50,261 bases of DNA. It comes from an uncultured Olsenella sp. (GTDB taxonomy: Bacteria; Actinomycetota; Coriobacteriia; Coriobacteriales; Atopobiaceae). This document shows, in pieces, positions 5,934 through 23,910 of this stretch. The notes under the pieces were generated by a model that was not told the DNA's origin, made no database searches, and worked only from the letters and a program-made list of their open reading frames with translations. Made by a program: the position numbers and the translations under genes. The DNA lies in the NCBI GenBank assembly GCA_900314495.1, contig OMVJ01000005.1, positions 90,726 to 140,986 of the forward strand. The letters run 5' to 3'. Numbering within the stretch: position 1 is the stretch's first letter; each line of letters opens with the position of its first letter.

Positions 5934-6542
5934 TTAGATCGGCTTGAGTGAAGAAGAGATGGCGGAGGATGATGCATTACTTGTGGCAATAGCTACGGGT
6001 AGATACGGCTTCCAGAGCGGACACTCACTCCAGCCTTCGGTAAATCCCATGCGACGCAATTCGTCTGTATCCAATCTGGTTAGGAGACTAAATAGCCGGG
6101 TGCGCCATGACGTTTCTGGGGCTATACGCTCGAGTAGATAGCTCAGGATTGTCAGGATGCCGAACATGTTGTCCGAGCGCACCTCGTACGGCTCGTGCCA
6201 CTCGGGATACTTCGTCTTGGTGGGAATGATTGGCCTAGTGCGGAAATAGACCTCGACGCGTTCGATGGCATCTAGAACGACAAGCCTAAACTGCCTGTCG
6301 AATGTGTAGAGCTTCCAAACCTTGTCGAATGTCGTACCCTCTACGAAACGCTCGTCCCTAGCGTCCTCATTGTTCGGTTTGGGGTTGCGTTTGAATATGT
6401 ACCAGTATCCGCTCAAGCGGTAATACCCGACGTCTGCTAGGTGAGAGATAAGCTCATTTCGGTCGGCAATGAGTCCACGCTCGTTTATGAGCAGCTCGGC
6501 TTGCTCCTCGAATGTTAGCCAAGGCTTCTTATATTCTCCCAC
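5934..6542 (-). pseudogene. Abi_2 (AbiD/AbiF-like) abortive infection gene with central deletion
   Basis: 202 codons in one open frame, but Abi_2 proteins are usually about 300. The N-terminal third is normal (KPWLTFEEQAELLINERG, HLADVGYYRLSGYWYIFK, FDRQFRLVVLDAIERVEVYF). At RT it jumps to the family's C-terminal segment (RPIIPTKTKYPEWHEPYEV, MFGILTILSYLLERIAP, MGFTEGWSECPLWK). The lost middle would contain the HEPN-like RN-x-CAHH-x-R motif thought to be the RNase centre. Start: GTG 6542 with GGAG upstream. The frame is kept, so a protein may be made, but activity is unlikely. The last ~15 residues also look atypical. Confidence 0.75.
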
Positions 6543-6708: not shown

Positions 6709-7300
6709 TTACGAGTCGATGGCATGCTTGGACGTAGGAAGGCCCCGCACCTCTAGATTCTCGCCCTCAGGTCCGCCGGCGAGGGGATACGCGGCGTAGT
6801 CCGCCGGCAGCTCGTCACCCAGGCGGTACTCGCTGACGCCGACGGGCTGGTTGATGTCCCTGAGGGAGTACTCGGTCACTACGTCGTTCTTGGTCTTGCA
6901 GAGCAGCAGGCCGTTGGTGAGGCGGTCCCCGTTTGCGCGCAGCTCGCCGTCCACGGTGGAGAAGCAGGAGCCCGGCTTGCCCGTGTACTCGGGCCTGAGC
7001 TCTGCGTTCTTCAGCCCCATGACCACGCAGCAGCGCAGCCTGACGTTGTAGAAGAGCAGGTCGATGGGGGAGTGCTCGCTGCACGCTGCCAGCGGGTGGT
7101 ACTGGCTGCGCGTGGAGGGCGAAGCCGATGCGCGGGAACTTTTTGCAGCAAGCTGTTGCAAAAGTCTTGGTCCGTCTCTCGGGGAAACTTGGCTATGTAA
7201 CGGAGACTGCGGGCGGAGAAGCCCTTGGGATCGGGGCGCGAATCGCGCATGCCTCGGGTTGGCTGTCAATAAAGCTGCTCCCCCAACCTAGTGCGGCAGG
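6709..7300 (-). pseudogene. decayed PDDEXK nuclease of the YhcG/DUF1016 family (N- and C-terminal pieces)
   Basis: On the minus strand three frames carry successive pieces of one protein. They are GWGSSFID (about 7270-7297), KGFSARSLRYIAKFPRET (about 7180-7230), and a long C-terminal piece with IDLLFYNVRLRCCVV, ELRPEYTGKPGSC, NGLLLCKTKNDVV and REDINQPVGVSEYRL-like sequence (6770-7050). The catalytic PD-(D/E)xK region is disrupted: VVMGLK replaces the usual ELK context. The middle segment of the family is absent here but a different fragment of it occurs at 21935-22298. Frameshifts make this a clear pseudogene. Confidence 0.7.
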
Positions 7301-7397: not shown

Positions 7398-7488
7398 GTC
7401 GCTGCCCTTAGGCGGCGTGGATTGAAACAATTGTTGCGTGAGGTATCCAACTGTTTGGACCCGACAGGCGTTGCCGTCTGTCGGGTCC
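7398..7488 (+). ncRNA. candidate crRNA-like regulatory RNA (degenerate I-C repeat plus pseudo-spacer)
   Basis: Positions 7398-7428 are a 31-base variant of the array repeat. The last 12 bases (GTGGATTGAAAC) are identical to the array, while the hairpin differs but stays paired: CGCTGCC-CTTA-GGCGGCG, with one U-G pair and a compensated C-G to G-C change. The next 17 bases (7429-7445, AATTGTTGCGTGAGGTA) match 14 of 17 bases on the minus strand of the cas3 promoter (7511-7527), beside a TTC PAM. An 11-base-pair hairpin (7457-7488) could end the RNA. The similarity and pairing are seen in sequence; transcription and function are inferred from autorepressing crRNA-like RNAs known in other type I systems. 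Confidence 0.7.
7457..7488 (+). terminator. strong hairpin between the repeat-like RNA and the cas promoter
   Basis: GGACCCGACAG pairs perfectly with CTGTCGGGTCC across a 10-base loop. There is no T-run after it, so it may be a stabilising 3' hairpin of the small RNA, a weak terminator or an operator, not a classical intrinsic terminator. It shows no similarity to the CRISPR repeat. Confidence 0.5.
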
Positions 7489-7507
7489 ATTCAGCCACTG
7501 GAACAAC

Positions 7508-7537
7508 TTTTACCTAACACATCAATTGAATTAATAC
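7508..7537 (+). promoter_or_regulatory. putative cas operon promoter overlapping a pseudo-spacer target
   Basis: A weak TTTTAC (7508-7513) and TAATAC (7532-7537), 18 bases apart, are the best -35/-10 pair in this AT-rich gap before cas3. On the minus strand the bases 7530-7528 read TTC, the type I-C PAM, and 7527-7511 form the protospacer-like match to the pseudo-spacer. The site therefore covers the spacer region of the promoter. Alternative -10: TATCAT at 7545. Confidence 0.4.
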
Positions 7538-7573
7538 TTATGCCTATCATTCTCTCAAGAAGGAGGATGGAGC

Positions 7574-9964
7574 ATGGACACTCTCTTTGCACATACACCC
7601 GATGGGGAAGACAAACCTTGGCAGACCCTCTCGGAGCACCTGGGCAACGTTGCAGAAGAAGCGTCAGAGTTTGCCGCGGAGTTTGGTTTTGGCAAATGGG
7701 GCTATGCCATCGGCCTACTACATGATGCTGGTAAAGTGGACCCTAAGTTCCAACGCAGGTTGGTGGATGCCCATGCGCCATCTTTTGATCATGCTGCTCT
7801 AGGTGCGGCAATTGCGCAGAGCGACTACGTCGGCCAGCTTGGCAAGACAGACGGCAACCTCATGGCATTTGCTATCGCGGGCCATCATGGTGGTATGCCA
7901 AATGGGGTACAGGCGGATGAACGCGCTGGCGGCAAGACTCCCTTGAAGACCCGCCTGACAGGAACCGACTTCAATGAAGCCGCAACGACATATCGCAGGG
8001 TAATCGCCGCGGCAGATTTGAGTCTGCCAAGCGCCGGGGAGCTCGAACATACATTTCTAGAGAAGGACTTGAGCGGACTTGCGGCACCTCCGAGTCAACG
8101 AATGCAGTCTCACGCAATCTTCTCGACTTCGGTGCTTGCGCGAATGCTGTACTCATGTCTGGTGGATGCCGACTATCTGGACACGGAGCGCTATGTGACT
8201 CCTGAGCTGGCAGATGCGCGCACACCATCAGGTCGCGCAACATTGCAGCAGCTTGCGGATCGACTCGACGGATATATGCGGGAACTAGCCAGCAAAGCGC
8301 CTGCTTCGCGCGTCAATGACGGGCGTGCTCTTGTACTTGAGGACTGCCGAATGGCGGCACAGCTTCCCGGTGGGCTTTATAAGCTAACGGTCCCCACGGG
8401 CGGTGGCAAGACACTGGCCTCACTCAGCTTTGCCTTGCACCATGCGGTGAAGAACAACATGAATCGGGTAATCTATGCCATTCCATTCACCTCAATCGTG
8501 GAGCAGACGGCAGGAGTGTTTCGCAAAGCGTTGGGAGTGGACGGCCAAGAGGATCAGCTGAACATCCTGGAGCATCACTCCAATTACGACTTTGATGCAG
8601 TTGATAGTGAGCGGGGACGGCGGGAACGTCTTGCCATCCAGAACTGGGATGCACCCGTAATCGTGACCACGAACGTGCAGTTGTTGGAATCCCTATATTC
8701 GAACAAACCGTCGCGTTGTCGCAAGCTGCACAACATTGCGAACTCGGTCATTGTCCTCGACGAAGCTCAAACGCTTCCCAACCAGCTGCTCACTGCTTCC
8801 CTTGCCATGTTGGAGGAGTTGACCAAGGACTACGGAGTCTCTGTGGTACTGTGCACCGCGACCCAGCCGGAGGCGGACTCCCTCTGGCCTTTTGGCACCG
8901 TTCCATATGAGATTGTGCGGAACCCAAGCGGATTAACAAAATACTTTACAAACAGGTCTGCCTTTGAAGTCCAGGGCACCGTTGAGGAAGAGACTCTTGC
9001 GAGGCAGTTGGCAGGGCTCAAACAGGTGCTCTGCATAGTGGACACCAAGGCCAAAGCACGTGACCTCTACAGAGATGTGGTTACGTGCTGCAGGGAAGAC
9101 GGAACACTAGCGGGTGGCGCGCCGCATGAAGAGGGCGTCTTTCACCTCAGTGCGAACATGACCCCTTACCATCGTTCGCTCTGGATTGGGGAGATTCGGC
9201 GGCGATTACGGGATGGCGAGCGATGCGTAGTCATCTCGACTCAACTCATCGAGGCCGGTGTCGACGTCGATTTTCCTGTGGTATGGCGAGAAAGCGCAGG
9301 GCTTGACTCACTTGTGCAGGCTGCCGGTAGATGCAACCGGGAGGGCAAGCAGGCCGATGCGGGAGTGGTGCACGTCTTCGACTTCGCAGACGATACCTCC
9401 TCAGAAACGTTTCGCAGGATGAGCTTGGGTGCCAATTGGTTGCAATACACTGCGGCCATTACTCGTGGGCTTATCGACAAACATGGTGGTGCGCTTTCGG
9501 CAGACATGGTGGGGGAGTACTTCCAAGAACTCTATGCAGAGGAGGGCCCGCTAGGTCTAGATGTCAAGGAGCTCTACTCGAGTCTCTGCAATACGGATCA
9601 TCCCGCTTCCGAGTTTCTGACTCTTGACTTCGAGACTTACGCCGAGAAGTACCAAATCATAGACAAGGGCGAGACACCGGTATTTGTTCCTTGGGGACCA
9701 GAAGGTCAGAAGCTGCGTCACGAGTTGACCGAGTTCTGTGCTGCAGGAAACCCGCCTGCAGCCATGGCGCGAAAGCTGCAGAGGTTTAGCGTGGGAGTTC
9801 CGCGGTGGAAACTCAATAAGTACCTTGCGGAGGGCCTTGTAGACGAGAAGACCTACGAACCAATTCATGTCCTGCTTCAGGAGGAGAATTGCGAAAAGCA
9901 GTACGACGACGAGGAGGGTCTCTTGGAGGTGGGAGAAGGAGTGCCCGACGTGTTGGTTTGCTGA
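7574..9964 (+). CDS. cas3: Cas3 nuclease-helicase, type I-C
   Basis: 796 residues; recruited by target-bound Cascade to unwind and degrade DNA. The N-terminal HD nuclease domain has H22 and H50-D51 in LLHDAGK. The superfamily 2 helicase has Walker A TGGGKT at residues 275-280 and Walker B DEAQ at 396-399, with motif VVISTQLIEAGVDVDF and a QAAGRCNREG motif VI further on. Both activities sit in one chain, as usual for I-C. Start: ATG 7574 after AGGAGG at 7561-7566. First gene of a compact seven-gene operon; 48 bases separate it from cas5c. Confidence 0.95.
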   Translation: MDTLFAHTPDGEDKPWQTLSEHLGNVAEEASEFAAEFGFGKWGYAIGLLHDAGKVDPKFQRRLVDAHAPSFDHAALGAAIAQSDYVGQLGKTDGNLMAFAIAGHHGGMPNGVQADERAGGKTPLKTRLTGTDFNEAATTYRRVIAAADLSLPSAGELEHTFLEKDLSGLAAPPSQRMQSHAIFSTSVLARMLYSCLVDADYLDTERYVTPELADARTPSGRATLQQLADRLDGYMRELASKAPASRVNDGRALVLEDCRMAAQLPGGLYKLTVPTGGGKTLASLSFALHHAVKNNMNRVIYAIPFTSIVEQTAGVFRKALGVDGQEDQLNILEHHSNYDFDAVDSERGRRERLAIQNWDAPVIVTTNVQLLESLYSNKPSRCRKLHNIANSVIVLDEAQTLPNQLLTASLAMLEELTKDYGVSVVLCTATQPEADSLWPFGTVPYEIVRNPSGLTKYFTNRSAFEVQGTVEEETLARQLAGLKQVLCIVDTKAKARDLYRDVVTCCREDGTLAGGAPHEEGVFHLSANMTPYHRSLWIGEIRRRLRDGERCVVISTQLIEAGVDVDFPVVWRESAGLDSLVQAAGRCNREGKQADAGVVHVFDFADDTSSETFRRMSLGANWLQYTAAITRGLIDKHGGALSADMVGEYFQELYAEEGPLGLDVKELYSSLCNTDHPASEFLTLDFETYAEKYQIIDKGETPVFVPWGPEGQKLRHELTEFCAAGNPPAAMARKLQRFSVGVPRWKLNKYLAEGLVDEKTYEPIHVLLQEENCEKQYDDEEGLLEVGEGVPDVLVC

Positions 9965-10012
9965 CTGTGCTGAGGTGCAGTTCGGAGGTTTCGTACGGGA
10001 AGGAGGTTTTGT

Positions 10013-10684
10013 ATGGGCTATGGAATAAGAGTGCTCGTTCAGGGGCCAAGGGCCTGCTTCACGCGACCAGAGATGAAGGCAGAGCGCGTGAGCTATGACG
10101 TGATTACCCCATCGGCAGCACGAGGAATCCTCGAGGCGGTGTATTGGAAGCCAGCTATCGTGTGGAAAATCGACCGCATTGAGGTGCTCAACAAGATTAA
10201 GTTCGATACGTTCCGTCGTAACGAAGTTGAGAGCAAGCTCAGCTACCAGGTGGCCAAGAAGGGCATGACTACTGGGTCCCCTATCTCGATAAGCTCCACA
10301 GAGAAACGGCAACAGCGTGCCATGCTCTACCTGCGTGACGTTGCCTATGTTATCGACGCGCACTTCGAGTTGACGCCGAAGGCGGGTGAAGCGGACACCA
10401 GGGAGAAGCACTATAACATCGCTCTTAGGCGACTCCGCAAGGGGCAGTGCTTCAACCAGCCGGTGCTTGGCTGCAGGGAGTTTCCTGCGAAGGTGACCTT
10501 GGTGGAGGCGGCTGAGCAGACGCCTCGGGGCTTTTACGCGGATGAGCCGGAGAAGGACCTTGGCTTCATGCTCTATGACTTGGATTTCTCTGCCGAGGAA
10601 TCACCCGTTCCGCACTTCTATCGCGCAGTCATGCGCAAGGGGGTGATTGACGTGGCCGCTGCGTCAAAGAAGGTGGTCTGGTGA
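10013..10684 (+). CDS. cas5c: Cas5c (Cas5d) crRNA endoribonuclease, type I-C
   Basis: 223 residues. In type I-C, which lacks Cas6, Cas5c cuts the pre-crRNA at the base of the repeat hairpin and stays on the crRNA 5' handle in Cascade. The family N-terminus VLVQGPRACFTRPEMKAERV and the segment SAARGILEAVYWKPAI are clear. Start: ATG 10013 with AAGGAGG upstream. Its stop overlaps the GTG of cas8c by four bases, so the two are coupled. Confidence 0.93.
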   Translation: MGYGIRVLVQGPRACFTRPEMKAERVSYDVITPSAARGILEAVYWKPAIVWKIDRIEVLNKIKFDTFRRNEVESKLSYQVAKKGMTTGSPISISSTEKRQQRAMLYLRDVAYVIDAHFELTPKAGEADTREKHYNIALRRLRKGQCFNQPVLGCREFPAKVTLVEAAEQTPRGFYADEPEKDLGFMLYDLDFSAEESPVPHFYRAVMRKGVIDVAAASKKVVW

Positions 10685-12495
10685 TACTGCAAGAGCTGTG
10701 CTTGCTGTATGATCGCCTCGCTGCGGATCCCGATCTTTCTGCTGGCCTGGCTCATCCCGGCTGGAGCAAGGAGAAAGTGGCCTGGTCTCTGGTCATTGAT
10801 GAGGATGGGAATCCGCTGACGATGTACCCGCTTGTCCAGGGTGAGCAGAAGTATCAAGAGCTTATGGTGCCCGAGCATGATGGGCGAACCAGCGGTGTCA
10901 AGCCTTTCTTCCTATGCGACAAGGCTTCGTATGTATTGGGAGTTGGGGATTCAAAGGCGCCGAAGTGTCATGAGGCCTCGCGCAAGCTTCACGCGGAGGT
11001 CCTTGAGGACTGCGATGACCTTGGAGCACGAGCAACCCTCGCCTTCCTTTCCAACGAAGAGGCGGCGAGCAGCCTTGGACCGCAAGAGCTGGATGCGCTT
11101 TCTAATGGCGGTATGATTGTCTTGTGCTTGGACCGTCCTGGAGAATTCATCCATGAGCGCAAGAACGTCAGAAGCGCATGGGAAGAATTCCGAACCCGGG
11201 ATGACGGGAATGACGAAACTACGGGCTGGTGTTCCGTCACTGGCGAACGCGGCTCTCTGGCTAGATTGTTCCCGTTGGTTACTGGAGTCCCCGGCGCTCA
11301 GTCTTCGGGTGCGTCGCTCGTCTCATACAACTTTGATGCCACGGAATCGTATGGGAAGAGCCAAGCATACAACGCCTCGATTTCCGAAGATGTTGCCTTC
11401 AAGGCCGGTCACGCCCTCAAATACTTGCTGGGGAGTCGGCAACACCGTGTGTACCAGGGAAACACTGCCATTACCTTCTGGACGGACGCTCCTTCTCCTG
11501 TGGCAAATAGCTTCTTGAGCATGCTAGTAAGTGGGCAGAAGGCAGAGGATGAGGTGACGCGGCGGGGTGTGGCACAAGCACTTCAAGAGATGAAGAAGGG
11601 CAAGCCACTTACGCCAATTGACCCAAGCGTTGGCTATTGCTTGTTAGGCCTTTCGCCAAATGCCGCGCGTCTTTCGGTGCGGTTCTTTGAGAGAGGTACC
11701 TTTGGTGAACTCGCCGAGAAGTATGGGCAATACCTGCGAGACACAGAGATTATTGACCAGTTCAATCAGGTAGACACTGCGACACTAACGTTTTGGCAGA
11801 TGGTGGCTCAAGCGGCCACGCTGGGCAAACTGGAAAACGTTCCGAGTACTTTGGTGTCGCGCTGCTTCTCGGCCATGACTGATGGCGGGGAGTTTCCGAA
11901 GGCTCTGCCCGAACTAGTGCGTTCCCGCATACGAGCGGATCATGGCGAAGTGCCTTATAAGGGGAAGTCATACGACGTTATGGGCCGAAGAGCCGCAGTT
12001 CTGAAGGCGTGTCATGTGAGGCGTCAGAGGCTACAAGGAATTCAGCAAACAAGGAAAGAGGAGGTAACTGTGGCACTGAACAGAGAGAACGAAAACGCTG
12101 GCTATCTTCTGGGGCGGCTCTTTGCGGTTCTTGAACGTGCGCAGCAAGGCGCTATACCAAATGCTAACGCCACTATTAGAGACCGCTACATTGGTGCCGC
12201 GTCCTCGACGCCGGCGCGTGTGTTCCAGCCGCTATTGAGGGGTTGCCAAACCCATCTGAGTACGCTCCGAAAGGACCCGAAAACAGCTGGTACGGCAGTG
12301 AAATTGGAGCGCGAGCTTGATGACATTATTGGCCGCCATCTGCCCGACACTGGCATCCCTAAGATTCTGAGCGCAGATGACCAGGACATGTTCTTTATTG
12401 GCTACTACCAAGAGCGGTGTGATTTGTGGTTGAGCAGGGCCGACAGGGAGGCCCTGCAAGTTCCTGACTCTGACGAGAGTACCAAGGAGGACTAG
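10681..12495 (+). CDS. cas8c: Cas8c (Csd1) large subunit of type I-C Cascade
   Basis: 604 residues from GTG 10681 (GTGA overlap with cas5c). This is the large subunit that reads the PAM and helps open the target duplex. Family features seen: the N-terminus LLYDRLAADPDLSAGLAHPG, GWCSVTGE near residue 180, LVSYNFDATESYGKSQAYNA near residue 220, and YCLLGLSPNAARLSVRFFE near residue 325. The C-terminal 141 residues can also be translated separately as Cas11c from an internal start. Two bases separate it from cas7c. Confidence 0.93.
   Translation: MILQELCLLYDRLAADPDLSAGLAHPGWSKEKVAWSLVIDEDGNPLTMYPLVQGEQKYQELMVPEHDGRTSGVKPFFLCDKASYVLGVGDSKAPKCHEASRKLHAEVLEDCDDLGARATLAFLSNEEAASSLGPQELDALSNGGMIVLCLDRPGEFIHERKNVRSAWEEFRTRDDGNDETTGWCSVTGERGSLARLFPLVTGVPGAQSSGASLVSYNFDATESYGKSQAYNASISEDVAFKAGHALKYLLGSRQHRVYQGNTAITFWTDAPSPVANSFLSMLVSGQKAEDEVTRRGVAQALQEMKKGKPLTPIDPSVGYCLLGLSPNAARLSVRFFERGTFGELAEKYGQYLRDTEIIDQFNQVDTATLTFWQMVAQAATLGKLENVPSTLVSRCFSAMTDGGEFPKALPELVRSRIRADHGEVPYKGKSYDVMGRRAAVLKACHVRRQRLQGIQQTRKEEVTVALNRENENAGYLLGRLFAVLERAQQGAIPNANATIRDRYIGAASSTPARVFQPLLRGCQTHLSTLRKDPKTAGTAVKLERELDDIIGRHLPDTGIPKILSADDQDMFFIGYYQERCDLWLSRADREALQVPDSDESTKED
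12070..12495 (+). CDS. cas11c: Cas11c small subunit from an internal start in cas8c
   Basis: Inside cas8c an AGGAGG (12059-12064) lies five bases before an in-frame GTG at 12070, giving a 141-residue C-terminal product beginning VALNRENENAGYLLG. Type I-C systems are known to make their small subunit Cas11c this way, and the location and size fit. The ribosome site and frame are seen; translation is inferred. Confidence 0.7.
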   Translation: MALNRENENAGYLLGRLFAVLERAQQGAIPNANATIRDRYIGAASSTPARVFQPLLRGCQTHLSTLRKDPKTAGTAVKLERELDDIIGRHLPDTGIPKILSADDQDMFFIGYYQERCDLWLSRADREALQVPDSDESTKED

Positions 12496-12497
12496 CA

Positions 12498-13415
12498 ATG
12501 ACTGAGACCATCAAGAACCGTTACGAGTTTGTGCTCTTTTGCGATGTCGAAAATGGCAACCCCAATGGGGATCCTGACGCTGGCAATCTTCCGAGGATCG
12601 ATCCCGAGACTGGTCGCGGAATCATCTCAGACGTCTGCATCAAGCGCAAGGTTCGGAACTACGTTGACCTCGTGAAGGGGCAAGCCATCGATGCGCCTGA
12701 CGTGGAAGAGGGCGAATTGGGCTACAAGATTTATGTCCAGGAAGGTGCCGTCCTCAATGAACGTAACAACATGGCGTATGTCCACTACGGTCTGAAGCCA
12801 GTGGATAAGAAATTGCCCAAGAAGGTAGAAGACCAGCGCAAGGTTACCAAGTTTATGTGCGACAACTTCTACGATATTCGCACCTTCGGCGCCGTAATGA
12901 CTACGGGTCGCAATTGCGGCCAGGTAAGGGGTCCCGTACAACTGTGTTTTGGCGAATCGGTAGACCCGGTTGCTCCAATGGAGATGAGCATCACCCGCAT
13001 GGCAGCAACTGAGGCCAAGGAAGACAAGGACAATAAGACCATGGGGCGTAAGCAGTACATCCCCTATGGCCTCTACCGCGTGGAAGGATTCGTGTCGGCG
13101 TCCCTTGCTGAGCGAACGGGCTTCTGCCAGGAAGACCTTGACCTTCTTTTTGAGGCGCTCATGAACATGTTCGAGAACGACAGGAGTGCCTCGCGTGGTC
13201 TCATGACGTCACGGGAGCTTGTAGTGTTCAAGCACGAAAGCAAGCTAGGCAATGCGCCAGCGCATGCGCTCTTTGATGCGGTGACTGTTCGTCGTACCAT
13301 TCCCGAAGAACAGCCGGCTCGTCAGTTTTCTGACTATGAGGTTGCAATTGATGAGGGCTCCATTCCGCAAGGAGTAGAGCACGAGGTCTTCACCTACATC
13401 CGGCCGTCCGCTTAG
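12498..13415 (+). CDS. cas7c: Cas7c (Csd2) backbone subunit of type I-C Cascade
   Basis: 305 residues; several copies form the filament along the crRNA spacer. The N-terminus NRYEFVLFCDVENGNPNGDP and the stretch RGIISDVCIKRKVRNYV are typical of Csd2, as is SITRMAATEAKEDKDNKTMG. Start: ATG 12498 with AAGGAGG in the end of cas8c. A 12-base gap separates it from cas4. Confidence 0.95.
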   Translation: MTETIKNRYEFVLFCDVENGNPNGDPDAGNLPRIDPETGRGIISDVCIKRKVRNYVDLVKGQAIDAPDVEEGELGYKIYVQEGAVLNERNNMAYVHYGLKPVDKKLPKKVEDQRKVTKFMCDNFYDIRTFGAVMTTGRNCGQVRGPVQLCFGESVDPVAPMEMSITRMAATEAKEDKDNKTMGRKQYIPYGLYRVEGFVSASLAERTGFCQEDLDLLFEALMNMFENDRSASRGLMTSRELVVFKHESKLGNAPAHALFDAVTVRRTIPEEQPARQFSDYEVAIDEGSIPQGVEHEVFTYIRPSA

Positions 13416-13427
13416 ACTGGCTGCAAA

Positions 13428-14060
13428 ATGTATGGGGAGGACGACCTTCTCGCCTTGTCGGGTCTGCAGCACATGGCTTACTGTGAGCGACAGTGGGCCC
13501 TCATACATGTCGAGCAATCCTGGGTTGAAAATGCCGATACGCTGCGGGGAGAGTTCTTTCACGAACGGGTGGACACCAAGGGATACTCCTGCTCGCATGG
13601 CGTGCGTGCAGAGCGACGTGTTCACCTAGTGAGCAATGAGCTGGGGATTTATGGGGTCGCCGACATCGTCGAGTACGGCGGTGGAGGCGACCCCGCCTCG
13701 ATTGTGCCCGTCGAGTACAAGGTTGGAAGGCCGAAGGTGGAGAACTGGGATCGTATCCAGTTGGCTGCTCAAGCCATGTGCCTCTCTGAGGCGTCGGGTC
13801 ATCCGATCAAAGCTGGTGCAATCTTCTATGGAGAGACGCGGCGGCGTGAGCCAGTGGCTATTAACCAGAAGTTGCGAGATGAGGTAACTGAACTTGCTAG
13901 CAGGATGCACGAGCTATTTGAGTTGGGCAAGACGCCGCCGGCCATTCTGAGTGGTAAGTGTCGCAGGTGCTCACTCAAAGAAGACTGCATGCCCGAGGCG
14001 AGTGACAGCGTAGCGGAGTACTGGGCTGAGCACGGTGAAGACTTGGGGGCGAGTGCCTAG
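13428..14060 (+). CDS. cas4: Cas4 adaptation nuclease, type I-C
   Basis: 210 residues; trims prespacer ends and helps select the PAM-side orientation with Cas1-Cas2. The Fe-S cysteines are present: one in LQHMAYCERQWALIHVE near residue 17 and three near the C-terminus in GKCRRCSLKEDC. The RecB-like nuclease motif reads IVPVEYKVGRPK. Start: ATG 13428. The stop is two bases before the ATG of cas1. Confidence 0.93.
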   Translation: MYGEDDLLALSGLQHMAYCERQWALIHVEQSWVENADTLRGEFFHERVDTKGYSCSHGVRAERRVHLVSNELGIYGVADIVEYGGGGDPASIVPVEYKVGRPKVENWDRIQLAAQAMCLSEASGHPIKAGAIFYGETRRREPVAINQKLRDEVTELASRMHELFELGKTPPAILSGKCRRCSLKEDCMPEASDSVAEYWAEHGEDLGASA

Positions 14061-14062
14061 AC

Positions 14063-15079
14063 ATGAGAAAGCTGCTCAATACGCTTTACCTTACAAATCC
14101 TGATGCACTCCTTCGCAAGCAGGACGACGCCTTACGCGTCGAGCTTGATGGTAAGTGTGTCATGAGTGTTCCTTTCCACGTGTTGGACGGTGTCGTCCTC
14201 TTTGGCCACGTAGGTTGCAGCATGGCTGTGCTTAGAGCGTGCGGTGAGCGTGGCGTGAGCGTTGTCATGTTGGACGAACGCGGGGGATACACGGGCAGGT
14301 TCGAGGGACCCATACATGGAAACGTGTTGTTGCGTCGAGAGCAGTACAAGAGGTCTGTGGATTCAGAAGCGTGCCTGACCACTGCTAAGCGGTTTGTGGT
14401 CGCAAAGGTTCATAACACGCGCGTGATTCTTCTCCGGCAGGCGAGGGACCATACGGAGATTGCTGGTGAGCTTGGAAAGGTTGCAGAATACCTGCATACG
14501 AGTGGCCGCTCCGCTTTAGCTACCAAGAGCTTGGATGAGCTTCGAGGTGTTGAAGGCGATGCGGCGCATGCGTACTTCTCCGTGTTCGGAAGCATGATTC
14601 GCGTGGAAGGAATCCGTTTCAACGGGCGCAATAGAAGACCTGCACGTGACCCCGCGAACGCCATGCTGTCGTTTTTCTATGCGATGCTTGCGAGAGATGT
14701 GGCCACGGCATGCGAAGCGGTGGGACTCGATCCACAAATGGGCTATCTGCATGCATGTCGTCCTGGGCGAATGAGTCTGGCTTTGGACTTGATGGAGGAA
14801 CTGCGCGCGCCTGTTGTCGATAGGTTCGTACTGGGGCTCATCAACAGGAAGCAGATGGGTGCAGGTGATTTCCGGATGGAGGGTGAGGCCTGCACGTTTA
14901 CTGATACTGCCATCAAAAGGGCGTTGGCGCTTTGGCAGGAGAGGAAGCGCGAGGAAGTAGTTCACCCATACTTAAAGGAGAAGGTCCCCATTGGGCTCTT
15001 GCCGTTTGTGCAGGCTCAGCTATTGGCGCGATACCTCAGAGGTGACTTGGACGATTACCCTGCTTTTCTTTGGCGATAG
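14063..15079 (+). CDS. cas1: Cas1 integrase, type I-C
   Basis: 338 residues; the metal-dependent integrase that inserts spacers at the leader end. Likely active-site residues are E164 (RGVEGDAAHAYF), H230 (GYLHACRPGR) and D242 with E245 (LALDLMEE). Start: ATG 14063, two bases after cas4. All catalytic residues are in place, so the adaptation module looks functional. Confidence 0.95.
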   Translation: MRKLLNTLYLTNPDALLRKQDDALRVELDGKCVMSVPFHVLDGVVLFGHVGCSMAVLRACGERGVSVVMLDERGGYTGRFEGPIHGNVLLRREQYKRSVDSEACLTTAKRFVVAKVHNTRVILLRQARDHTEIAGELGKVAEYLHTSGRSALATKSLDELRGVEGDAAHAYFSVFGSMIRVEGIRFNGRNRRPARDPANAMLSFFYAMLARDVATACEAVGLDPQMGYLHACRPGRMSLALDLMEELRAPVVDRFVLGLINRKQMGAGDFRMEGEACTFTDTAIKRALALWQERKREEVVHPYLKEKVPIGLLPFVQAQLLARYLRGDLDDYPAFLWR

Positions 15080-15087
15080 GAGGAGAG

Positions 15088-15378
15088 GTGTACGTACTGG
15101 TAGCGTATGACGTGGCAACGAGCGATGCGGGTGGTGCTCGACGGCTGCGCCGAGTGGCGAAGATTTGCACCGAGTATGGTCAGCGTGTCCAATGCTCTGT
15201 ATTTGAGTGTCTTGTAGATCCTGCACAATACGAGCTTCTCAAACATCGACTTGAGAAGGTCATTGACGGAGAGATGGACAGCCTCCGAATGTACAATCTT
15301 GGCAAGAACTGGAAAGGTCGTGTGGAGAAGCTAGGCGTTGACCGCTCGTACGACCCTGAAGGCCTCCTGCTTATTTGA
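15088..15378 (+). CDS. cas2: Cas2 adaptation protein, type I-C
   Basis: 96 residues starting MYVLVAYDV, which is the usual I-C Cas2 start; the GTG at 15088 follows AGGAGG, which overlaps the cas1 stop. A TTG at 15070 would add six residues without reason. Contains YDVATSDAGGARRLRRVAKI and QCSVFECLVDPAQ. Cas2 bridges two Cas1 dimers during spacer integration. Confidence 0.93.
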   Translation: MYVLVAYDVATSDAGGARRLRRVAKICTEYGQRVQCSVFECLVDPAQYELLKHRLEKVIDGEMDSLRMYNLGKNWKGRVEKLGVDRSYDPEGLLLI

Positions 15379-15539: not shown

Positions 15540-18830
<3,291 letters not shown>

Positions 18831-19184: not shown

Positions 19185-19255
19185 CTCGTCCTGCGCCCGG
19201 TGAGTAGAATGGGAGTCGAGGGGGTCACTGGGCAACGCACTGTGAACCCCCTCAT

Positions 19256-19288
19256 TGTGTCAATCGGGGACGTTTCCCTTCTGACACA
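19256..19288. repeat. GTGACA-type palindrome, copy A1 (imperfect)
   Basis: TGTGTCA...TGACACA arms around the shared core GGGGACGTTTCCCTT. Follows the small hypothetical gene at about 70 bases and may act as a terminator. Confidence 0.6.
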
Positions 19289-19801: not shown

Positions 19802-19957
19802 GAGCTGTCCCTTCTCTGCTGGCGGGGCCCGCGGACCTGATTCCCGTTGGAATTTGCCCCTGCGCCGCCCATGCTTCCTGTAACGGTCAGTATGCCAATG
19901 CCACGGGAGCAATTCCCTAGCCACCAGCTAGTGCCTAAGAACGGTCAGCGGCGTAAT

Positions 19958-19986
19958 GTGACAGGGGGACGTTTCCCTTCTGACAC
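19958..19986. repeat. GTGACA-type palindrome, copy A2
   Basis: GTGACAGG...TCTGACAC arms around GGGGACGTTTCCC, in the gap before the lipoprotein gene. Confidence 0.7.
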
Positions 19987-20053
19987 GCCGCGCGCGTCAA
20001 CGTCGCCTAACATTGTCTTTGTCGTCTTGCGCAATAGCGGATGGGAGTGCCCC

Positions 20054-21061
20054 ATGAATGTTCACGGGAAGACGGAAAGCCAAAGAGTCATCACCCTGGT
20101 GTCTGCCGTTGTCCTGGCGCTCATCCTTTTGCCCGCTTGCAAGTCCGGCCAGGCCGGCAAGGAAAATGATGGGTCCACTGCCGATCAGGTCACTGCCGAA
20201 CAGGTGGCGCTTGAAGATGCCCAGGTTACGCTTGCCCCCGATGCCTCCAAGACGCTTGAGCAGGTGGGGGACGGCTACCAGGTTGAGTACGGTACGGGCA
20301 CTCTCGACCTTGCGTCGCTCTTGGTAAGCTCGGACAGCGAAGTCGACCTGACCATCGACGGCACGGTTGACCTCTCCAAGGTCGGCCCTCAGGACGTTAG
20401 CTGTACGCTCTCCAATGCCTCGGGTTCTCGGAGCGAGATCAAGACCTTTGACGTTCGCGACACGCAGAGCCCGGAGGTCAGTATCGGGCAGAGCTCGGTG
20501 GACGTCATGCAGGGCGATGCGTACCAAGCGACTGGGAACGTCACCGTGAGCGATCCCGTGGATGGCGCCATAAGCAACGCGACCGGGGAGCCCAGCTCCA
20601 CGGGTGAGGCGGACGGCAAGAAGACCTATGACAAGGGATGGTACCTGCTCTCATACACTTGCCCCGATGGGTCCAGCGCCCAGGGCATCGATACATCCGT
20701 GACGGGTACCTACCAGGTTAAGGTAGATGCCTGCGACCGCAACGGGAACCGATCGGAAGGCTCCTTCTCGGTTGTCGTGCATGCCGCTCCCGCAGCCGAG
20801 GCTACCGAGACCGCAGAGGCTAGCGCGGCGCAGCCCACGGCAGAGGCTGCCCCAGAACCGGAAGCCACTACCAGCGCCGATGCCGCAACTGCCGCAGAGC
20901 CGGCACGAGACTTCGTTCTGAACACCCACACGATGAAGATTCATCTGCCTGGATGCTCGTCCATTGGCAGGATCAAGGAGTCTAACAGGGCGGATGTGCA
21001 CGACACGCTCTCCAACCTGGAGGCGCAAGGTTACAAGACCTGCAAGAGGTGCCTGGGCTAG
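20054..21061 (+). CDS. secreted lipoprotein with cysteine-rich C-terminal module
   Basis: 335 residues. A lipoprotein signal peptide with hydrophobic core VITLVSAVVLALILLPAC ends in the lipobox LPAC, so it is likely anchored outside the membrane. Two beta-rich stretches resembling immunoglobulin-like surface modules follow (VTLAPDASKTL..., SPEVSIGQSSVDVMQGDAY), then an Ala/Glu/Pro/Thr linker. The last 50 residues (FVLNTHTMKIHLPGCSSI, KTCKRCLG) match a short Cys module often found at the end of secreted nucleases and surface proteins. Start: ATG 20054 with GGGAG upstream. Specific role unknown. Confidence 0.8.
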   Translation: MNVHGKTESQRVITLVSAVVLALILLPACKSGQAGKENDGSTADQVTAEQVALEDAQVTLAPDASKTLEQVGDGYQVEYGTGTLDLASLLVSSDSEVDLTIDGTVDLSKVGPQDVSCTLSNASGSRSEIKTFDVRDTQSPEVSIGQSSVDVMQGDAYQATGNVTVSDPVDGAISNATGEPSSTGEADGKKTYDKGWYLLSYTCPDGSSAQGIDTSVTGTYQVKVDACDRNGNRSEGSFSVVVHAAPAAEATETAEASAAQPTAEAAPEPEATTSADAATAAEPARDFVLNTHTMKIHLPGCSSIGRIKESNRADVHDTLSNLEAQGYKTCKRCLG

Positions 21062-21062
21062 C

Positions 21063-21093
21063 GTGACAAAAGGGGACGTTTCCCTTCTGACAC
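21063..21093. repeat. GTGACA-type palindrome, copy A3
   Basis: GTGACAAAAGGG and CCCTTCTGACAC arms around GACGTTT, two bases after the lipoprotein stop; a likely terminator for that gene. Confidence 0.75.
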
Positions 21094-21098
21094 GCCGT

Positions 21099-21934: not shown

Positions 21935-22298
21935 GTTCCGTCTGGCCCACCACCAGCCGGCACACCTTGCCCATGTAGGCAAAGCCGGAACCCAGCTCCA
22001 TCAGGAAGTCCGTGATGCTCTTGAGCAGTGCCTCCTTGAGCTCGCGCTCGCCGTAGCTCTCGCGAATGGCCAGAAAGTCAAACTGGTAAGGGTCGCGCGT
22101 CAGCTCCTGCGCGCAGGCGCTCTGCGGCTCGGGCAGGGTCTGCGAGAAGTTGCTGACTGCCCTGCCGTGCCGCTCGTACAGCTGGCTGTCAATCTGGTTC
22201 ATCAGGACCGCGCGCGACCAGCCGTGCGCCACCGTCTCCCGCACATATAAGCTAGCCTTTTGGGGCTCTCTCAAACACCTATCGATAACGAGGCGCAT
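21935..22298 (-). pseudogene. middle fragment of a YhcG/DUF1016-family nuclease
   Basis: The minus-strand frame reads SLYVRETVAHGWSRAVLMNQ, LYERHGRAVSNFSQTLPEPQ, DPYQFDFLAIRES and LMELGSGFAYMGKVCRLVV. These match the central part of YhcG-type proteins up to just before the IDLLFYH nuclease motif. Both the N-terminal domain and the PD-(D/E)xK catalytic part are missing, and palindromes flank it on both sides. It covers exactly the portion lacking in the other YhcG remnant at 6709-7300. Confidence 0.7.
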
Positions 22299-22306
22299 GG
22301 ATTCCC

Positions 22307-22337
22307 GTGACAAAGGGGGACGTTTCCCTTTTGTCAC
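22307..22337. repeat. GTGACA-type palindrome, copy A5
   Basis: GTGACAAAGGG and CCCTTTTGTCAC arms around GGACGTTT. It lies just after the DUF5131 stop codon on the minus strand, so it can serve as its terminator. Confidence 0.75.
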
Positions 22338-22340
22338 GGC

Positions 22341-23261: not shown

Positions 23262-23280
23262 GGGGTGGCCTTTCCGTGAC

Positions 23281-23322
23281 GTGACAAAAGGGTGACAAAA
23301 GGGGACGTTTCCCTTTTGACAC
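23281..23322. repeat. GTGACA-type palindrome, copy A6 (double left arm)
   Basis: GTGACAAAAGG occurs twice in tandem before GGACGTTTCCCTTTTGACAC, as if the left arm were duplicated. Confidence 0.7.
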
Positions 23323-23338
23323 ACGCGCCGAGCGCGCG

Positions 23339-23819: not shown

Positions 23820-23848
23820 GTGACAGGGGGACGTTTCTCTTTTGGCAC
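23820..23848. repeat. GTGACA-type palindrome, copy A7
   Basis: GTGACAGGGGGACGTTTCTC followed by TTTTGGCAC; upstream of mutM and facing copy A8 in inverted orientation. Confidence 0.65.
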
Positions 23849-23852
23849 ATCT

Positions 23853-23910
23853 TTGCACACGGCACGGCACCCGTGCATCGGGCGGACCCCGGCATGCCAC
23901 CCGCGTGTCA
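23853..23910 (+). repeat. core-deleted derivative of the 120-base structured repeat
   Basis: GCACACGGCACGGCACCCGTGC resembles the left stem and GGCATGCCACCCGCGTGTC resembles the right end of the other copies, but the central CCCAAAGAACCG block is missing. It lies between inverted palindromes A7 and A8. Confidence 0.5.

Follow-up and report, generated by a model that had tools for sequence, protein, structure and literature searches.

Natural RNAs that redirect a Cas effector to a chromosomal promoter are known from more than one type of CRISPR system; tracr-L of type II-A does so through short pairing. In the literature, cas-regulating RNAs (CreRs) are reportedly the subject of Liu et al. (2023, Cell Host Microbe). 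PMC13131331 presents CreRs as crRNA-like RNAs with which Cascade or Cas12a represses the cas promoter, reported in subtypes I-B, I-E and V-A, PMC12737573 says that they are widespread in type I and V-A systems, and CreRs are also described in PMC12948488. CreA, the antitoxin RNA of CreTA, acts on toxin genes in a like manner and is known from type I-B systems of archaea and type I-F systems of Acinetobacter (PMC9458426, PMC10097628); the I-F CreA guide pairs with its target at 17 of 20 positions, i.e. at all but 6, 11 and 18 (PMC10097628). The scaRNA of Francisella (II-B), cited in PMC9458426, is a Cas9-based case.

The window, that is, the whole stretch of 50,261 nucleotides analysed here, comes from the 2.8 Mb genome of a gut-type actinobacterium and carries on its plus strand a complete type I-C operon, cas3-cas5c-cas8c-cas7-cas4-cas1-cas2 (7574-15378), followed on the same strand by a CRISPR array of 49 repeats with intact handle (15540-18763). 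The first gene of the operon, cas3 (7574-9964), exceeds the cut-offs of both TIGR01587 and TIGR01596. Behind it come cas5c, for the crRNA-processing subunit of type I-C (10013-10684; TIGR01876, 207 bits), cas8c/csd1 (10681-12495; TIGR01863, 415 bits), cas7/csd2 (12498-13415; TIGR02589, 371 bits), cas4 (13428-14060; TIGR00372), cas1c (14063-15079; TIGR03640) and cas2 (15070-15378; TIGR01573). With Cas5c, Cas8c, Cas7 (Csd2), Cas1c and Cas3 encoded in one operon next to an array, the locus belongs to subtype I-C. The intergenic DNA 3' of the array also holds dispersed repeats around GGGGACGTTTCCCTTYTGACAC, with a near-palindromic TGACAAAAGGGGACG..., at 19240-19288, 19939-19987, 21046-21094, 22290-22338, 23275-23323 and 23827-23875.

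Upstream of cas3, on the plus strand, lies one degenerate I-C repeat, GTCGCTGCCCTTAGGCGGCGTGGATTGAAAC (7398-7428), the array repeat being GTCGCGCCCCGTGCGGGCGCGTGGATTGAAAC. The 12-base 3' end of this pseudo-repeat, GTGGATTGAAAC, is identical to that of the array repeat, and exact copies of this handle number 50 in the genome, 49 of them in the array and a single ectopic one at 7417-7428, 145 nt from the start of cas3. The stem CGCTGCC/GGCGGCG (7400-7406/7411-7417, with the loop at 7407-7410) differs from that of the array repeat in one pair swapped from C-G to G-C and one changed from G-C to T.G, and the 11-nt handle TGGATTGAAAC (7418-7428) follows it without a gap. An earlier, sequence-only reading had claimed a solitary degenerate repeat at this place, with an unchanged 12-base handle and a stem retained through compensating changes, and direct reading together with the count of handles agrees with it on all three. 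On the contig, no second handle with at most one mismatch was found outside the array, and a hairpin occupies its place. Two putative gene fragments were noted by eye on the minus strand upstream of the pseudo-repeat: 5934-6542 is similar to an Abi-family protein, and 6709-7269 to a YhcG/DUF1016-like protein in its C-terminal part.

The pairing part of the guide, nt 1-17 of the pseudo-spacer (AATTGTTGCGTGAGGTA, 7429-7445, plus strand; unpaired guide continues to about 7455), is identical at 14 of 17 positions to a protospacer-like target on the minus strand, AATTGATGTGTTAGGTA (7527-7511), with mismatches at positions 6, 9 and 12, and the target is adjoined by a TTC PAM (7530-7528, minus strand; GAA on the plus strand). 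All of this had been claimed before and can be read directly from the letters. A guide RNA would pair with the plus strand of the target. When the PAM plus target pattern was allowed up to three mismatches, it occurred in the 2.8 Mb genome at the target and in the guide itself and nowhere else. Directly 3' of the guide stands a strong hairpin that the earlier reading had missed (7456-7489, plus strand; a 15-bp stem with a 4-nt loop), and the folding z-scores are -5.9 (repeat plus hairpin) and -7.3 for the window element. This hairpin is likely the 3' end or terminator of a small RNA, though its T-run is poor; as there is no clear T-run, it may not terminate transcription.

We searched for Cas3 in 140 genomes from the family of the source organism, in about 400 each from its class and its phylum, in two sister families and in a third small family, and then read the DNA upstream of each cas3 found for a pseudo-repeat, a guide and a target. 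The same architecture, in which guide and hairpin follow a solitary pseudo-repeat and the guide has a PAM-flanked match on the minus strand, precedes cas3 in 17 different loci, that of the window (L002) and 16 further I-C loci of Coriobacteriia-type genomes (L003, L007, L008, L010, L025, L028, L030-L033, L035, L039, L040, L043, L044 and L049). Amid the divergence of everything else, handle, PAM and orientation are kept: the handle reads [T/A/C]GG[A/G]TTGAAA[C/T], with one T changed to A in L007, and the PAM is TTC in 16 of the 17 loci and TTT in L032. The pseudo-repeat stem ends 0-2 nt before the 11-nt handle in every case and the stem sequences differ; taken one by one, some of the short stems do not exceed shuffled sequences in strength, so it is their shared position, not their energy, that serves as the argument. 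Each locus also has a strong hairpin of unrelated sequence, starting at guide nt 16-37 (mostly 22-37), where an array would have its second repeat, and this hairpin presumably forms the 3' end of the RNA. In L031 a CRISPR array lies at -700 to -320 relative to cas3, directly upstream of the element, and is a possible source of its pseudo-repeat.

The guides themselves differ, and each matches its own target over the first 11 to 18 nt. Examples, in which lower case marks unpaired letters, are AATTGtTGcGTgAGGTA in the window, AATTGaTTTcTgAGGTA in L003, AATTAcTTGTTtTG in L007, AGCGAcTCATTtATTA in L008, ATATTgGTtGTaTGGGTA in L010, ATGTTtGTTAGaCGGGT in L025, ATTTGtTTGtTGATTATGG in L033 and ATAGTgAAGTGTTGT in L044. 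Even in the closest pair, the window and L003, guide nt 7-11 go from TGCGT to TTTCT and the target goes from TGTGT to TTTAT. Counted position by position over the 17 loci, guide and target agree in 17, 17, 16, 17 and 17 at nt 1-5 (84 of 85 cells), in two at nt 6, in 17, 17, 14, 15 and 17 at nt 7-11 (80 of 85 cells), in five at nt 12, and in 15, 14, 9, 9 and 9 at nt 13-17; past nt 17 the counts are 5, 2, 5 and so on, and agreement is at chance level from nt 18-19 on. The third block and position 9 are thus mismatched in some loci. The two matches in 17 at position 6 are not far under the one-in-four chance level, which makes a lack of constraint clear but does not allow avoidance to be claimed. 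Of the earlier statement that positions 6 and 12 stay unpaired, the part that stands is that they are unconstrained; they are not strictly mismatched, given the two and five loci that match there. R-loop pairing by the Cascade of type I effectors has a six-base periodicity. The per-position profile has the appearance of a fingerprint of such pairing, and none of the alternatives that we considered would predict it.

With the threshold set at no fewer than 9 of the 10 paired seed positions plus TTC, a guide finds its own target in 16 of 17 loci, the exception being L032 with its TTT PAM. In contrast, guides set against other loci reached this threshold in 3 of about 2,400 comparisons, and none of nine controls with array repeats or spacers reached even 8. 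Seed and target thus co-vary in the 17 loci and do not vary independently, which was the check in related genomes that the sequence-only reading had proposed. Together with the kept handle, PAM and orientation, this co-variation supports its suggestion that a crRNA-like RNA may guide Cascade to repress cas, a reading that also draws on the known mechanism of CreRs (PMC13131331, PMC12737573). We have high confidence that the element would act as a CreR-like, Cascade-guiding autorepressor of the type I-C cas operon. Such autorepression very probably serves as a thermostat of the immune system, and at least 12 relatives keep the device with a different but matching guide and target.

Where the target lies relative to the cas3 promoter bears on how repression would work. 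A scan of the window with the sigma-70 consensus returned no promoter for the small RNA or for cas3 and no terminator, and the promoter positions given here are those found by eye and by comparison with relatives only. The Shine-Dalgarno sequence of cas3, AAGGAGG (7560-7566, plus strand), is read directly, whereas the putative -10, TATCAT (7545-7550, plus strand), is assigned tentatively, from a position relative to the PAM that is as in L003, L025, L028 and L044. TATCAT starts 17 nt after the start of the PAM in the window, by an uncertain alignment with the relatives made by eye, and in the window and these four loci the best -10-like hexamer, again by eye, lies 14-17 nt after the PAM start. 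In all five, the target would probably cover the -35 position, with the PAM in the spacer between -35 and -10; the earlier placement of the target itself between -35 and -10 is probably not correct. The target of L007 lies, by eye, just past the likely -10 and adjoins the Shine-Dalgarno sequence, where bound Cascade would act as a roadblock.

One may consider instead that the small RNA guides no Cascade and acts by antisense pairing with the 5' leader of the cas3 mRNA. The guide is complementary to the sense (plus) strand of cas3, and a small RNA ending in a hairpin would fit. This explanation, however, has no role for the TTC, the CRISPR handle, the unpaired positions 6 and 12 or the five-base blocks, and in the window, L003, L025, L028 and L044 the likely -10 comes after the target, which tentatively puts the target outside the mRNA. 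We regard it as very improbable.

A second alternative is an antitoxin of the CreTA or CrePA type, whose guide would repress a toxin instead of cas. Four relatives (L030, L032, L033 and L049) have their target 210-355 nt from cas3 and, between pseudo-repeat and cas3, a small ORF with a good ribosome-binding site behind the target. Those of L030 (-343 to -257 relative to cas3; G249) and L032 (-201 to -112; G341) encode related basic peptides of 28-29 aa, MRGKIKIHFRTWFCRLRIGIAFGFKRSK and MKGKLKVRFRSWFCKIGICVSFRATRQKK (E = 1.6e-5), which are candidates for I-C CreTA toxins or for leader peptides; when further relatives of the L032 peptide (29 aa) were sought, L030 alone was found. The ORF of L033 (-267; G167) encodes a 55-aa helix-turn-helix protein (PF12728), and the nearest relative of this locus, L038, is without pseudo-repeat and small ORF alike, the same upstream gene reaching cas3. 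L049 has a 32-aa, amphipathic-looking peptide, a pseudo-repeat at -427 and two candidate targets, at -457 and about -345. The better one, which entered the per-position counts, is located upstream of the pseudo-repeat of L049 itself, so that self-repression is possible there, and the other precedes the 32-aa ORF. The layout of these loci suggests CreTA or CrePA modules in type I-C, and a guide that represses an adjacent toxin gene may be present in all four. In the window, however, cas3 is the only ORF with a ribosome-binding site after the target (7511-7574), and for this locus there is very little chance that the antitoxin explanation is the right one.

Taken across the clade, the position upstream of cas3 in I-C loci of Coriobacteriia may host single-repeat, hairpin-ended guide RNAs whose targets have switched repeatedly, aimed either at the cas operon (in most lineages, that of the window among them) or at a small peptide or helix-turn-helix gene. 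We consider it evenly balanced whether autorepression and addiction are in this way interconvertible states of one element; if they are, type I-C would have an autorepression/addiction switch in a subtype where neither was known.

Array decay gives rise to solitary repeats, and the repeat in the window is degenerate, as would be expected of a leftover from an old array whose flank came to resemble the cas3 promoter by accident. At the window locus alone, letter-shuffled guides gave at least 14 of 17 matches plus TTC within 7446-7573 in 1 of 20,000 cases, which speaks against such an accident but is a figure that we do not rely on, since the guide length of 17 had been chosen after the match was seen. 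What refutes the leftover is the co-variation, with pairs maintained in 17 loci against the few hits of the cross control and with handle, PAM and orientation kept while the rest diverged; the different seeds also exclude recent copies of one sequence. We give this explanation hardly any credence. An RNA anti-CRISPR (Racr), i.e. a lone repeat that sequesters Cas proteins in a nonfunctional complex, is hardly conceivable either, for although I-C Racrs of phages exist (PMC10651486) and the repeat in the window is a solitary I-C one, the element adjoins its own cas operon on a chromosomal contig, keeps its processing features and has a guide with an independently maintained target.

The 38 Cas3 proteins placed in a tree form two clades. 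One of them, with support 100/100, has the element at 16 of its 23 loci and the other at 1 of 15, and the distribution of the element requires four changes on the tree, as compared with 11 when the labels are shuffled. Roughly one in three loci of the former clade is without the element, which is therefore dispensable; a scan of seven such loci that did not depend on the handle found no hidden guide/target pair. A scan of genome contigs with a single Cas3 sequence had no match, and an alignment-based Cas3 scan yielded 80 loci from many phyla, with the element upstream of cas3 in L061, possibly in L118 and in no others. L061, from an uncultured Coriobacteriaceae bacterium MAG, is the same locus as L028, which makes Coriobacteriia the most likely lineage of the relatives. 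The device is not peculiar to its source genome; it is typical of a single clade of I-C loci in Coriobacteriia. Outside the class, among the loci from many phyla, only L118 looked similar, and doubtfully so, and L140 more weakly. The candidate in L118, a Desulfobacula MAG, occupies -356 and -428 relative to cas3 and consists of a solitary GTGGGTTGAAAC and, behind it, a guide that matches a site flanked by TTC; it is AT-rich enough for doubt and is without a strong hairpin.

In type I-C systems Cas5c cuts the repeats at the base of the stem, taking the role of Cas6. From the anatomy of the element we infer the following course of events. A small RNA would start at or before 7398, Cas5c would cut it at the base of the pseudo-repeat stem to leave the 11-nt handle UGGAUUGAAAC, with the guide following, and the hairpin 7456-7489 would mark the end of the RNA. 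After loading into I-C Cascade (Cas5c-Cas8c-Cas7), the RNA would find the TTC-flanked site 7527-7511 and pair there in three blocks, nt 1-5, 7-11 and 13-17, with bases 6 and 12 flipped out. Bound Cascade would lie over the cas3 promoter at its -35 region, blocking transcription of the whole cas operon; as pairing stops at nt 17, Cas3 would stay unlicensed and the chromosome would be spared. Whenever array crRNAs or anti-CRISPRs withdraw Cascade, the promoter would open and more Cas protein would be made.

Type I-C is among the commonest CRISPR subtypes. The genomes of gut bacteria, Eggerthella lenta among them, are edited with it (PMC9734109). A built-in thermostat would both explain and control the levels of Cas proteins in type I-C hosts, and it would let type I-C systems sense anti-CRISPRs. 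The 17 natural guide/target pairs can further be seen as an evolutionary read-out of the positions that I-C Cascade needs, in which 1-5 and 7-11 hardly vary, 6 is free, 12 is mostly so and little is required past 17, and could supply rules of binding without cleavage for gene silencing with I-C.

Among the known systems, the closest is CreR. As far as sequence can tell, the window element has every CreR feature: an ectopic repeat with kept handle beside the cas operon, a guide partly complementary to the cognate cas promoter (the promoter itself being inferred) next to a PAM, and no coupled toxin gene; Cascade-dependent autorepression would be expected of it as well. CreRs have one or two pseudo-repeats, two being usual but not obligatory, and whereas the usual form is a two-repeat mini-CRISPR, the window element has one pseudo-repeat and then a hairpin. 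CreRs, moreover, are reported for I-B, I-E and V-A, whereas here the subtype is I-C, in which repeats are processed by Cas5c and not by Cas6. With CreA the element shares one or two degenerate repeats, a short guide, partial pairing that spares position 6, and a PAM-flanked chromosomal target that would not be cleaved. It differs in that it has no toxin gene and its target is the cas3 promoter; the target of I-F CreA lies downstream of the promoter, as do those of L030, L032 and L033. Racrs, found in phages and prophages (PMC10651486), resemble it in their solitary I-C-like repeat unit, but are virus-borne, unlinked to cas and without a guide that matches a target. Like the window element, tracr-L and scaRNA are natural RNAs with which a Cas effector represses a promoter through short pairing, but they are Cas9-based and of unrelated RNA architecture. 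In the literature that we searched there was no report of a CreR or CreTA in type I-C, and the primary CreR paper may already list I-C predictions. The mechanism is one already known, and what is new, as far as that literature goes, is the I-C subtype with Cas5c in place of Cas6, the form of one repeat plus hairpin, the conservation throughout a clade and the apparent switch of targets.
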